25,750 nt of DNA, taken from positions 1 to 25,750 of the IMG/VR virus record IMGVR_UViG_3300017962_000100, one strand, 5' to 3'. Shown in pieces: positions 18,082 to 21,488 of the stretch. Under the pieces are notes generated by a model that had not been told where the DNA came from, made no database searches, and saw only the letters and a program-made list of their open reading frames with translations. Numbering within the stretch: position 1 is the first letter of the stretch; each line of letters opens with the position of its first letter. Source of the DNA: a virus. The position numbers were made by a program, and so were the translations under genes.

Positions 18082-18108
18082 TTATGTTGACAATAAATAA
18101 CAACATAA
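18082..18108 (+). repeat. Inverted repeat around the late promoter before 18124
   Basis: TTATGTTG (18082-18089) and CAACATAA (18101-18108) are perfect 8-bp complements separated by 11 bases that hold the AATAAATA octamer. There is no T-run after it, so it is not a classical terminator. It could be a protein-binding dyad or a weak mRNA hairpin. Confidence 0.7.
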
Positions 18109-18116
18109 GGTATAAT
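18087..18116 (+). promoter_or_regulatory. Sigma70-type promoter: TTGACA, 18 bp, TATAAT
   Basis: TTGACA (18087-18092) and TATAAT (18111-18116) both match the bacterial consensus exactly with an 18-bp spacer. Transcription would begin at about 18122-18124, practically on the start codon at 18124, so this promoter would give a leaderless or almost leaderless message. It overlaps the late octamer. Confidence 0.5.
18092..18099 (+). promoter_or_regulatory. Late promoter octamer (AATAAATA) before the 217-aa gene
   Basis: This is the same octamer as before gp25 and before 16354. Start of transcription near 18105 would put the AAGG ribosome site (18107-18110) in the leader, 13 bases from the ATG at 18124, a rather long spacing. 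Confidence 0.6.
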
Positions 18117-18123
18117 GTAAAAA

Positions 18124-18777
18124 ATGACAGATAAAAATATAGATAAAAAACCCAATGAAACTGGCACAGTTAAAGTGCAAGGTCATGTGCTGATCACAGA
18201 TAAAAATTCCGGTGAAGTTTTAGTTGACAAAAAAAATGCTATTCACTTTGGAAATATGGCATATGTTATTGCATCTGCTCTTAGTCATCATAACTTAAAT
18301 GATTCAGGTATTTACTGGATGGGATTTGGAAATGGTGGTTCTGATGTGTTATCCACAGGTAGTATCAAATACAAAGGTACTAACACAGGAACAACCAAAG
18401 ACAACTCTTCAGATTTGTATAACAGAACATATAACAAAGTTGTTGCAAAACCCAGTTCAACTACCACAGTTTCAAGCGGTGATCCTGACAACAACATTGA
18501 AATACTTGATTCAACAGGACCATATACTGATATCAAAGTCACATGTACTCTAGATTTTGGAGAACCATCAGGCCAAGATGCACAAGATAATGCAACTGCT
18601 GACACTGATTATGTGTTTGACGAACTAGGTCTTTTTGCATATTACCAAGATACTGCATCAGGCACACTAGACATTGAACAAAGTCTACTGCTTTCGCATG
18701 TGATTTTTCACCCTGTACAGAAAAGTACAAACAGACAAATTGAGGTTGTATACACTGTTCGAGTGCAAATGCAGTAA
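18124..18777 (+). CDS. Virion structural protein, 217 aa, conserved in marine T4-like phages
   Basis: The protein has a short charged N-terminus, then VKVQGHVLITDKNSGEVLVD (about 17-36) and K-N-A-I-H-F-G-N-M. A Gly-rich MGFGNGGSDV loop follows near residue 61, and the C-terminal part ends in beta-strands (QIEVVYTVRVQMQ). I recognise the 'GHV-I-D-TGEVLVDKKNAIH ... FGNGG' pattern from structural proteins near the tail-fibre genes of marine T4-like phages, but cannot name a T4 counterpart. It lies between two fibre-like genes and has its own late promoter. A role at the fibre attachment or baseplate periphery is an inference. There is no signal peptide or membrane segment. Confidence 0.65.
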   Translation: MTDKNIDKKPNETGTVKVQGHVLITDKNSGEVLVDKKNAIHFGNMAYVIASALSHHNLNDSGIYWMGFGNGGSDVLSTGSIKYKGTNTGTTKDNSSDLYNRTYNKVVAKPSSTTTVSSGDPDNNIEILDSTGPYTDIKVTCTLDFGEPSGQDAQDNATADTDYVFDELGLFAYYQDTASGTLDIEQSLLLSHVIFHPVQKSTNRQIEVVYTVRVQMQ

Positions 18778-18833: not shown

Positions 18834-18841
18834 TATAAATA
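18834..18841 (+). promoter_or_regulatory. T4-type late promoter octamer (TATAAATA) before the 435-aa fibre gene
   Basis: This is an exact T4 late consensus in the 79-base gap 18778-18856, 15 bases before the start at 18857. AAGGAG at 18845-18850 is a strong ribosome site with a six-base spacing. The expected start of transcription near 18847 would fall within this site. Confidence 0.7.
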
Positions 18842-18856
18842 TGTAAGGAGCAACAG

Positions 18857-20164
18857 ATGAGTTATACAATTAATAACACAAGAGGATCAGTGGTCACCAC
18901 AGTTACTCCGGGAACTACCCAAGTAGTTGGTGGTATTACACTGATCGGTAAAAACTATACAGGTTACGGCGAAATTATTGCTGAAGATTTTGTAAGAATA
19001 CTTGAAAATCAAGCCAGCAACACAGCACCCAGTGCCGCATTAACCGGACAATTATGGTACGACACAACAACCAATCAAGTTGGTTTAAAAGTTTATAATG
19101 GTACAGGCTGGGATAGAACCACACCACAAGTAGGTTCAACTACACCAAGTTCTCCTACAGCAGGTACGCTTTGGTTAGATACCGGTTCTGACAATGTTTT
19201 AAAAATCTACAACGGTAGTGATTGGATTTCAACTGCAATGGGATCAGATGATACCAAGCAAGTGCCGGTCACAGTAAAAGTAGGTGACAACAGTTGGGTA
19301 TCTACATCCGTTAGAAAAAATGGATATTCATCAAATTCAGATGCCGAAGTTGGTGTGACAGCAGTTATAGGTAAAGATGCATCTGGAGTAGACACTGTGA
19401 TTGCAGTTTATTCTCCGGCTTCGTTTACTATCAGTTCTAACACTACAAGTTATGCTAATACCACAACAGTGGTAGGAAAAATTTGTGCTAACTTTACAGC
19501 AGATGGTGCCAACGTTGCTGGATCATTAAACGCTGGTTTAAATATCAGAGATGGTTTTATTGATGCAGAATCGGCTCCATTAGCAGATGAATCATTAGCA
19601 CTACAAGATTCAGGTAATTCAAGCATCAGCTATTCTTCAGATGATCTTTTTGTACTTGCAAAAACAACAGATCAAACACACAGCGGAAATCTAGTTCCAA
19701 GTTCAAACAATGCTATTGACTTAGGAAGTTCAAGCAACAAATATGCAAATATTTACGGTGTAAGTGTTGAAGCAACATACGCCGATATCGCTGAAAGATT
19801 TGAAGCAGATGAACCACTAGATGCAGGAACAGTTATTGCACTAGGTGGTGCAAAAGAAATTACTAAAACTGCCGAAAGAGCAGACAATAAAGTATTTGGT
19901 GTTATTTCCAAAACACCAGCATTTAAAATGAATGCCGGTGCCGGTGATGACGCCACACATCCTTTTGTTGCATTTTCTGGAAGGGTACTTTGCAAAGTCA
20001 AAGGTCCTGTAACAAAAGGAGATAGATTGGTCAGCAGTGACGTTCCAGGCGTTGCTGTCAAAGCCAATCCCGATGATGACTGGAAAGCGACTTTTGGTCG
20101 TGCTCTAGTTGATAAAACATCAATTAACATAGAAAAAATAACTATTGCAATAGGAGTGAAATAA
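18857..20164 (+). CDS. Tail fibre protein with LW(Y/L)DT repeats and a C-terminal beta-barrel-like domain
   Basis: The N-terminus (SYTINNTRG, then LIGKNYTGYGE and EDFVRILENQASNTAPSA) is a block I know from phage tail fibre proteins. Two repeats follow: GQLWYDTTTNQ with VYNGTGW (64-85) and GTLWLDTGSDN with IYNGSDW (103-123). A further block NNAIDLGSSSNKYANIYG (284-301) leads into a C-terminal domain from YADIAERFEAD (308) to the end. That domain holds AGTVIALGG, VFGVISKTPAFKMN, FSGRVLCKVKGPVTKGDRLV and PGVAV, a pattern resembling SH3-like or hub-type beta domains at the end of fibre proteins. The protein is likely a trimeric fibre or adhesin-associated part of the virion, possibly host-contacting. 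It has its own late promoter and a strong ribosome site. The next gene starts one base after its stop. Confidence 0.78.
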   Translation: MSYTINNTRGSVVTTVTPGTTQVVGGITLIGKNYTGYGEIIAEDFVRILENQASNTAPSAALTGQLWYDTTTNQVGLKVYNGTGWDRTTPQVGSTTPSSPTAGTLWLDTGSDNVLKIYNGSDWISTAMGSDDTKQVPVTVKVGDNSWVSTSVRKNGYSSNSDAEVGVTAVIGKDASGVDTVIAVYSPASFTISSNTTSYANTTTVVGKICANFTADGANVAGSLNAGLNIRDGFIDAESAPLADESLALQDSGNSSISYSSDDLFVLAKTTDQTHSGNLVPSSNNAIDLGSSSNKYANIYGVSVEATYADIAERFEADEPLDAGTVIALGGAKEITKTAERADNKVFGVISKTPAFKMNAGAGDDATHPFVAFSGRVLCKVKGPVTKGDRLVSSDVPGVAVKANPDDDWKATFGRALVDKTSINIEKITIAIGVK

Positions 20165-20165
20165 A

Positions 20166-21071
20166 ATGGCTTATCAACAGGGAGATACTATTACAGCTAC
20201 AGATTACAACAATTTTGTTGCTAATATCAATGCTGTGATCAGTACAGGTTCCGGTGATAGTGGGTATGGCTTAACAGCAGTTAGCAGTGTATCCGTTGGA
20301 GCAACTATCTCAGCCGCCCAATGGAATTCATTACTAGATGGTTTACAGACCGCCGGTAATCACCAAGGAACAACATTAACAAACGCATCAAACACAGTAA
20401 CAACAGGAGGTAACATTTTGCCTTTGGCAAACTTAGCCGCTGACATTACTTTGATTGACACAAACAGATTAACAGCAGACGCAGGCAATATGTCAACTGG
20501 TGTTGCAGGTACAAGTTCATCAAGAACAACAGCATGGACAGGTACTGTATCACACACATTTACAGTAACATATGCAGATGCCAATGCCGCTAGATATTTC
20601 TTTAATTCAGGTGGTAAAATCAAGTTTGCTTTTTCAAGATCAGGCGGTACTACATCAGATCAGAACACATCTTGGACTAACTTACTTTCAGGACTAGGCA
20701 CAGTTGAATTTGGTGCTACTGGTTCACAGAGTACAGGTTCAGCAGGTTTTTATGATCTAACAGGTACACCAGCTAGTGTTTATAACTCAGCTGTAGGATC
20801 AGGTGCATATTCGGCCAACGATGTAGACATTGCGGCTTCAGTATCATCAAATGTGATTACATTTACAGTATCATTTAATGATGATCATGCGGCGGCCACT
20901 GGTACATACACAGGTGGCGGTCTAGGTACTGCGCCAAATGAAGGTACAGGTTGGACAGGTACTGACTCAGTGGATGGTACATTAACATCTACTATTACAT
21001 TTGACAAGGCAGATAATGCCTCTTATGTACAGGTAGCGTCACCAACATTTAGTACCACATCAGGCTTATAA
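20166..21071 (+). CDS. Virion structural protein, 301 aa, beta-rich
   Basis: The N-terminus (YQQGDTITATDYNNFVANIN) and the following ISAAQWNSLLDGL are typical of small structural or tail-tip proteins of marine phages. The middle has YFFNSGGKIKFAFSRSGGT and TSWTNLLSGLGTVEFG (about 144-180), a conserved block I have seen in phage virion proteins. The rest is Ser/Thr/Gly-rich with alternating strands and no long hydrophobic stretch. It starts one base after the previous stop, with AGGAG at 20152-20156 nine bases before the ATG, and shares the late transcript of the fibre gene. It is the last gene before the terminator. It could be a fibre, a fibre cap or a decoration protein; the sequence does not decide. 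Confidence 0.65.
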   Translation: MAYQQGDTITATDYNNFVANINAVISTGSGDSGYGLTAVSSVSVGATISAAQWNSLLDGLQTAGNHQGTTLTNASNTVTTGGNILPLANLAADITLIDTNRLTADAGNMSTGVAGTSSSRTTAWTGTVSHTFTVTYADANAARYFFNSGGKIKFAFSRSGGTTSDQNTSWTNLLSGLGTVEFGATGSQSTGSAGFYDLTGTPASVYNSAVGSGAYSANDVDIAASVSSNVITFTVSFNDDHAAATGTYTGGGLGTAPNEGTGWTGTDSVDGTLTSTITFDKADNASYVQVASPTFSTTSGL

Positions 21072-21079
21072 AATAACAA

Positions 21080-21099
21080 TTAATTTGTTGACAAATTAA
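21080..21099 (+). repeat. AT-rich hairpin upstream of the terminator
   Basis: TTAATTTG (21080-21087) and CAAATTAA (21092-21099) pair perfectly over 8 bp around a TTGA loop. It abuts the terminator stem and its loop contains part of the TTGACA element. On its own it is weak and is not followed by a T-run. Confidence 0.6.
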
Positions 21100-21116
21100 A
21101 CCTCCGATGTTAATAT
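21088..21116 (+). promoter_or_regulatory. Sigma70-type promoter within the terminator region: TTGACA, 17 bp, TAATAT
   Basis: TTGACA (21088-21093) is a perfect -35 element. TAATAT (21111-21116), at the preferred 17-bp spacing, keeps the most conserved A2 and T6 of the -10 box (four of six matches). Transcription would begin near 21123, the first base of the 3' arm of the terminator stem, leaving the GGAGG site free in the new message. Confidence 0.5.
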
Positions 21117-21140
21117 TAACAAAACATCGGAGGTTTTTTT
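21098..21140 (+). terminator. Intrinsic terminator ending the late structural block
   Basis: The arms 21098-21111 (AAACCTCCGATGTT) and 21123-21136 (AACATCGGAGGTTT) are perfect 14-bp complements around an 11-base AT-rich loop. The 3' arm runs into seven T (21134-21140). This is a strong rho-independent terminator, placed 26 bases after the stop of the 301-aa gene. Its 3' arm contains the ribosome site of the next gene. Confidence 0.92.
21129..21133 (+). promoter_or_regulatory. Shine-Dalgarno GGAGG inside the terminator stem
   Basis: GGAGG lies seven bases (all T) before the ATG at 21141, an ideal spacing, and is fully paired in the terminator hairpin. Read-through transcripts would hide it; transcripts starting at about 21123 would not. 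Confidence 0.8.
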
Positions 21141-21488
21141 ATGACCGATTTAAGATTGGAAAAAGCACTAGAATTTGCAAACTATAGATCTACTCTGGCA
21201 ATTCAAAAACAACAACTAAAAGATCGTTGTGAAGCTAGATTAAATTTTGCATATAATGGTGGATTATTCAAAATAGATCAAAGTCTTATTGGATTAATTG
21301 GTAATTTTGTTCACGAACAAAAAACTGATATAATATTATTAGATTCAAATCAAACACCAATTGCAGTTGAAGATCTAAGTGATTTTTATAATAAAATCAC
21401 ATCTCTGTGGTTTGAGTCTGTTAATGAATATCATAAGCAATATCAAGAATTAGCCAATAAACGCAAAGTACACAAACTGGTAGAATAA
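21141..21488 (+). CDS. Conserved phage protein of unknown function, 115 aa
   Basis: The protein is mostly helical. LRLEKALEFANYRSTLAIQKQQLKDR-type sequence (residues 4 to about 30) looks amphipathic and could form a coiled coil. It is followed by F-A-Y-N-G-G-L-F-K-I (36-45), a strand IILLD-SNQTPIAVEDL (69-84) and a long helix to the end (NEYHKQYQELANKRKVHKLV). I recall similar small proteins in marine T4-like phages near the tail genes, without known function. The start is fixed by GGAGG seven bases upstream, embedded in the terminator stem. The next gene begins one base after its stop, so it leads the glycosyltransferase cluster. There is no membrane segment or signal peptide. Confidence 0.75.
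   Translation: MTDLRLEKALEFANYRSTLAIQKQQLKDRCEARLNFAYNGGLFKIDQSLIGLIGNFVHEQKTDIILLDSNQTPIAVEDLSDFYNKITSLWFESVNEYHKQYQELANKRKVHKLVE

Follow-up and report, generated by a model that had tools for sequence, protein, structure and literature searches.

In phage T4, the ribosome-binding sites of several genes lie in sequestering hairpins with a late promoter embedded in them. The described cases are e, soc, 49, I-TevI and segB, together with mobE of phage Aeh1 (PMC3014915, PMC2988022). Long RNA arriving from upstream pairs the Shine-Dalgarno (SD) sequence within a stem, while RNA begun locally lacks the 5' arm and is translated (PMC3014915, PMC2988022). The translational half of the element described below is therefore already known, and what is new here is the added terminator and the use of a sigma-70-type promoter. 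A literature search confined to open papers found no account of early-promoter or terminator-fused forms.

The window, meaning the whole stretch of DNA analysed, is a 25,750-base virus fragment with T4-type baseplate wedge genes, which we assign to a marine T4-like virus. The junction under study lies between the last gene of an upstream block, encoding a 301-aa protein, and the first gene of a downstream operon, encoding a 115-aa protein; the genes around it lie on the + strand throughout. ATG 21141 opens a closely packed row of genes that reaches at least to 25563. The lysin of the window, a member of glycoside hydrolase family 108 (GH108), belongs to this operon, and its DNA is 83-85% identical over about 160 bases to that of Pelagibacter phages HTVC008M and Mosig. 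The 115-aa protein has no PHROG or Pfam match, and zero matches across 50,697 phage records. Coordinates are collected in Table 1.

Table 1. Features of the junction and late-promoter motifs of the window.
Feature	Position	Strand	Basis or remark
Last gene of upstream block, 301 aa	20166..21071	+	Stop codon ends 26 nt ahead of the stem
-35 element TTGACA	21088..21093	+	TTGAC invariant in fused junctions of 10 aligned loci
Promoter spacer, 17 nt	21094..21110	+	Contains 13/14 bases of the 5' arm; same length in every fused relative
5' arm (anti-Shine-Dalgarno) AAACCTCCGATGTT	21098-21111	+	Repeat finder; co-varies with the 3' arm in relatives
-10 element TAATAT	21111..21116	+	End of 5' arm and part of loop; TA---T invariant
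Hairpin loop, 11 nt	21112..21122	+	Repeat finder
Predicted transcription start, +1 at about 21123	21122..21124	+	Inferred from -10 position
3' arm AACATCGGAGGTTT, holding the Shine-Dalgarno	21123-21136	+	Repeat finder, RNA fold
Shine-Dalgarno GGAGG	21129..21133	+	Inside the 3' arm
T7, candidate terminator U-tract and SD-to-start spacer	21134..21140	+	Runs into ATG 21141
First gene of downstream operon, 115 aa (115-codon ORF, ATG 21141)	21141..21488	+	Conserved in uncultivated marine viruses
T4-type late promoter motif TATAAATA	18834..18841	+	Ahead of structural gene at 18857
Similar NATAAATA motifs	524, 16320, 18092	+	Motif scan of the window

The original prediction described a 14-bp stem with GGAGG in its 3' arm and seven T before the ATG, and the sequence and a repeat finder bear this out: 21098-21111/21123-21136 is a perfect inverted repeat, complementary at 14/14 base pairs. 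The predicted RNA fold of 21070-21170 reaches -26.7 kcal/mol (z = -5.9), a stability equalled by none of 200 shuffles. The stem at 21098-21136 is the only perfect one in the window with at least 12 bp and at least five G-C pairs, and 12 dinucleotide shuffles of the window gave two such stems in total. The first relatives fetched supplied 1,530 distinct ORF upstream regions, of which nine have a perfect stem of at least 9 bp adjoining the start codon; shuffled upstream regions have none. At least six of the nine sit at this same junction.

Two known types of element can be recognized in this anatomy. A stable, G+C-containing stem leads directly into a U-tract (14 bp and T7, with T6-7 conserved), as in an intrinsic terminator, and the SD sequence lies inside the 3' arm of a stable stem, as in a T4-type locked ribosome site. 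The loop exceeds the 3-8 nt usual for intrinsic terminators, at 11 nt in the window, although loops of 4-9 nt are predicted for several relatives. A simple terminator scan, which accepts loops of up to 8 nt, omitted the window hairpin. An Rfam search returned no family at gathering score and only sub-threshold chance matches. Bidirectional termination, acting also on the minus strand, was considered and dropped, as both flanking genes read along the + strand and neither side has a converging gene. Positions 21080-21099 form a further, AT-rich inverted repeat, TTAATTTG-TTGA-CAAATTAA, with the -35 element at its centre; it is not evident in related junctions.

A promoter of the form TTGACA-N17-TAATAT had been said to overlap the 5' arm, and it does so exactly. 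It agrees with the sigma-70 consensus (TTGACA and TATAAT, 16-18 nt apart) at 10/12 positions, compared with 10-12/12 in relatives, and its -10 element is weaker than theirs. Promoter-like matches in the AT-rich window number 69 against 75 in shuffles and are hence not above chance, so the case for this promoter rests on its conservation. Base 21123 is the seventh after the -10 element and also the first of the 3' arm, and the predicted +1 therefore falls where the start had been placed. RNA from such a start would lack the 5' arm, and the -35/-10 geometry that sets it is conserved. The embedded T4 late promoter (TATAAATA) of the T4 locks has no counterpart here: no NATAAATA occurs in 21071-21141, and the putative promoter is of the sigma-70 type instead.

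The upstream 301-aa and downstream 115-aa proteins each identify 80 loci in uncultivated viruses, and the junction that they share was compared. Conservation in related phages had been proposed as a check on the element, and the fused arrangement is present in nine distinct junction sequences (window/L081, L085, L086, L096, L082, L087, L084, L093 and L098). All follow one layout: TTGACW, 17 nt, TAnnnT, a hairpin with the ribosome site in its 3' arm, T6-7 and ATG. Invariant columns of the alignment comprise TTGAC, TA---T, one G in the SD region, T6 and ATG. The -10 element is TATAAT in L082, L084, L087, L093 and L098, and the first three of these carry TTGACA-N17-TATAAT, the full 12/12 consensus. 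The arms differ while their pairing is kept, as with GATGTT/AACATC (window), TAGTGT/ACACTG (L086) and CAGTTAT/ATAATTG (L082). Because MAFFT put gaps into the arms, covariation was measured by arm swapping. Six representatives average -21.1 kcal/mol with their own arms and -13.5 kcal/mol with swapped arms, and 2 of 720 permutations, the native set included, match the native total; both figures take related sequences as independent. L098 has a bulged stem and so fell outside the ORF-based scan for perfect stems, but is included in the junction comparison. As judged from these alignments, the comparison argues against a chance origin of the fused arrangement. An ATG lies within the 5' arm in L093, L094, L095 and L098 and is in frame with the downstream gene at least in L093-L095, where read-through RNA could encode an N-terminal extension that local RNA cannot.

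Other relatives show the same functions in other forms. In L088, L089, L090 and L092 the elements are arranged in series. A stand-alone terminator (GGGCG-GCAA-CGCCC, followed by T7) comes first, a promoter whose elements are 17 nt apart second, and GGAGG and ATG last. Their SD-to-ATG spacers read GTTATT, TAAAACA or TATATA and contain no T-run. In these relatives the T-run belongs to the separate terminator, which is the strongest indication that its counterpart in the fused form serves termination. More distant relatives, L107-L154, have terminator-only versions. L153 has a hairpin-locked ribosome site that encloses a promoter-like motif but lacks a strong T-run; in L015, L020 and L043, the loop of the lock contains a late-type ATAAATA motif.

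Predicted folding separates the two RNAs that the junction could yield. The read-through RNA has a predicted fold energy of -26.2 kcal/mol and the local RNA one of -6.9 kcal/mol. For the window, the predicted probability that the SD bases are unpaired rises from about 0 in the read-through RNA to 0.04-0.79 per base in the local one, and across the fused cases it is likewise higher in local than in read-through RNA. The far weaker predicted fold agrees with the claim that local RNA would be freely translated; the wording is somewhat overstated, since part of the SD in the window's local RNA is still predicted to pair weakly with early codons. For termination, the distance from the upstream stop codon also matters. 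Full termination is reported for E. coli tR2 with more than 27 nt from the stop codon, where the terminating ribosome is then no hindrance (PMC4824070). The 26 nt between stop codon and stem in the window falls slightly under that value, and being so near the tR2 limit, termination should be substantial.

Late-promoter motifs are partitioned across the junction. The window holds four NATAAATA motifs on the + strand, each 23-34 nt upstream of a gene start (550, 16354, 18124 and 18857), and one on the - strand that precedes a divergent gene; none on the + strand lies at or after the junction. The same holds for 11 related loci, in which all + strand motifs precede the junction and none occurs past it over about 4 kb (less where the locus ends). 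G001 and G002, both with a fused junction, encode a gp55-type late sigma factor beside a gp47-like gene (PHROG 12791, E ~1e-84). The gp33-like HTVC008M protein found no match in four relatives, a negative that carries no weight for a query of 69 aa. Because the late motifs lie upstream only and gp55 is present in G001 and G002, it is plausible that the junction divides gp55-driven late from sigma-70-type transcription; from this we infer the timing, with read-through late and local transcription early or host-sigma. The original prediction also had the element isolating a glycosyltransferase/lysin cluster from the structural block. The distribution of late motifs and the GH108 lysin agree with this; the glycosyltransferases of the downstream cluster stay putative, being named by neither PHROGs, Pfam nor PDB sequences. 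A 12/12 TTGACA-N18-TATAAT match at 18087-18116 overlaps the late AATAAATA motif ahead of the gene at 18124, and related loci, too, have AATAAATA with TATAAT-like bases behind it.

We propose that the junction is a self-bypassing boundary element, or one-way valve, which terminates or locks read-through RNA and lets RNA from a local sigma-70-type promoter be translated, and we put the probability of this reading at roughly 0.7. RNA polymerase coming from the late-transcribed structural genes would copy both arms, and the hairpin with its U7 would stop transcription. In read-through RNA that escaped, the stem would hide GGAGG and leave the 115-aa gene untranslated. The sigma-70-type promoter would share the same DNA, with the 5' arm as its spacer, its -10 element in the loop and its start at the 3' arm. 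Because local RNA would begin at the 3' arm, the stem could not form, termination there would be impossible, the ribosome site would be exposed, and the lysin-containing operon would begin. Co-varying arms, an invariant -35 element, -10 element and T-run, and the series relatives all lend support to the three-in-one switch as first predicted.

Three other readings share parts of this evidence. That series relatives (L088-L092, L107-L154) have separate terminators at this junction marks termination as the conserved function, and the T-run is invariant in the fused forms only. Both would suit a plain insulating terminator and promoter, compressed by genome compaction, in which termination does the work and concealment of the ribosome site is incidental, with no role under selection. 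That account is unlikely, given that L153, L015 and L020, like T4 e, 49 and I-TevII, have no strong T-run and yet keep an SD-pairing hairpin round a promoter-like motif, so that the lock alone can be maintained. The T4 precedents, which lack a T-run, point instead towards a T4-type translational lock only, with T7 a mere SD-to-start spacer and little termination, and the 11-nt loop, long for an intrinsic terminator, and the 26-nt stop distance are likewise not ideal for termination. T6-7 is nonetheless invariant in the fused junctions, and the series relatives carry their T-run on the separate terminator rather than between SD and ATG, which leaves a lock without termination distinctly improbable.

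It could also be that the promoter goes unused and the operon is expressed by read-through, the hairpin being an attenuator opened by a protein, by temperature or by antitermination. The window's promoter does match at just 10/12 and, taken alone, is not above chance. We nevertheless consider this reading very improbable, because the spacing, the -35 and the -10 elements are conserved (12/12 in three relatives) while the arms change, and because the promoter stands free behind the terminator in the series relatives; nor did Rfam return a family at gathering score.

The proposed valve may extend beyond this group. Viral contigs scanned for TTGAC-N18-TANNNT-N8-22-GGAGG-T-run yielded 89 distinct matches; arm pairing is below -15 kcal/mol in 51 of them, compared with 13% when arms were randomly swapped. 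Four genes downstream of these matches were named by PHROGs as exonuclease, PurZ-like synthetase, dUTPase and endonuclease. Genome-wide scans of HTVC008M, Mosig, Syn9, P-SSM2 and P-SSM4 found 0-2 such hairpins each, at control level, so the module is not universal among cultured marine T4-like phages. In T4, the scan recovered e, 49 and I-TevII, and 11 of 404 ORFs scored against one in the shuffled control.

Individual cases are recorded here for reference. Fused TTGAC/TATAAT/GGAGG/T6 hairpins occur in the unrelated uncultivated phages L428, L442, L440, L383, L360, L427, L447 and L385, ahead of nucleotide-metabolism genes (RNase H-like exonuclease, PurZ-like, dUTPase, endonuclease); L428 has the pattern twice in 12.5 kb (3991 and 10579). 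The T5-like phages Spc35 (L488 360-445) and KPP2018 (L489 361-446) carry TTGCTT-N17-TATAAT downstream of RNase H; the spacer contains AAAGCYCTC, TATAAT falls in the loop, and GAGGGCTTT stands directly ahead of the ATG. In P-SSM2 (NC_006883 about 212713, L336 about 14713), AAGACCCCT-tttat-AGGGGTCTT-TTTTT adjoins the ATG of a 121-aa ORF; this terminator-like hairpin overlaps the ribosome site and has no evident promoter within it.

On the sequence evidence, the geometry recurs in uncultivated phages, in T5-like phages and in several T4 early genes, the last without a T-run. We regard it as evenly balanced whether large tailed phages have repeatedly evolved promoter-in-hairpin valves as a general boundary module, serving early (host-sigma) and late promoters, often fused to a terminator and leaving each cluster to be expressed solely from its own promoter. 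If the proposed valve is real, 50-60 bases would serve as terminator, insulator, promoter and leader, and operon borders of uncultivated phages could be found by motif. The T4 lock would be extended from late to host-type promoters and to transcription termination. The element would also be a simple portable part, which should shield a gene cluster from upstream transcription without a protein regulator.

Several known elements each share part of the design of the window's element. Five ATGs on the minus strand of T4 (NC_000866), at 62740 (regB), 65355 (denV), 53885 (nrdC.8), 123032 (alt.-3) and 130253 (30.8), have the same geometry: as in the window, the spacer holds the 5' arm, the -10 element lies in the loop and the SD in the 3' arm. 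Unlike the window, these early genes have a GTTTAC-type early promoter and no T-run, so a translational lock only is expected there. The unit ACCTCCCCTCTAAATAGTTAGACGGGAGGT-T6/7-ATG is found in 26 phage records, mostly of Synechococcus phages. In ACG-2014e, S-CAM4 and S-H9-1 it resembles the window in that its hairpin loop contains a promoter-like motif and its 3' arm the SD. It differs in that the loop motif is the late CTAAATA and the unit divides replication genes from the next gene, which is the T4 polarity. The unit occupies one place per record, for example L342 2501-2540 (KJ019054) and L343 2501-2541 (MW117966), with replication genes on one side and a hypothetical gene of some 500 aa on the other.

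With T4 e, soc, 49 and I-TevI the window shares the translational half of its element and a local promoter in the DNA of the 5' arm. That promoter is of the sigma-70 type, whereas T4 uses the late TATAAATA promoter, and the U-tract of the window would add termination. The polarity is likely opposite as well: the T4 locks block early read-through, while in the window late read-through would be excluded and the local promoter would be host-type. Like intrinsic (Rho-independent) terminators, the window's stem contains G+C and is followed by seven T; unlike ordinary ones, its 3' arm and T-run would double as SD and spacer, and its 5' arm as the spacer of a promoter.
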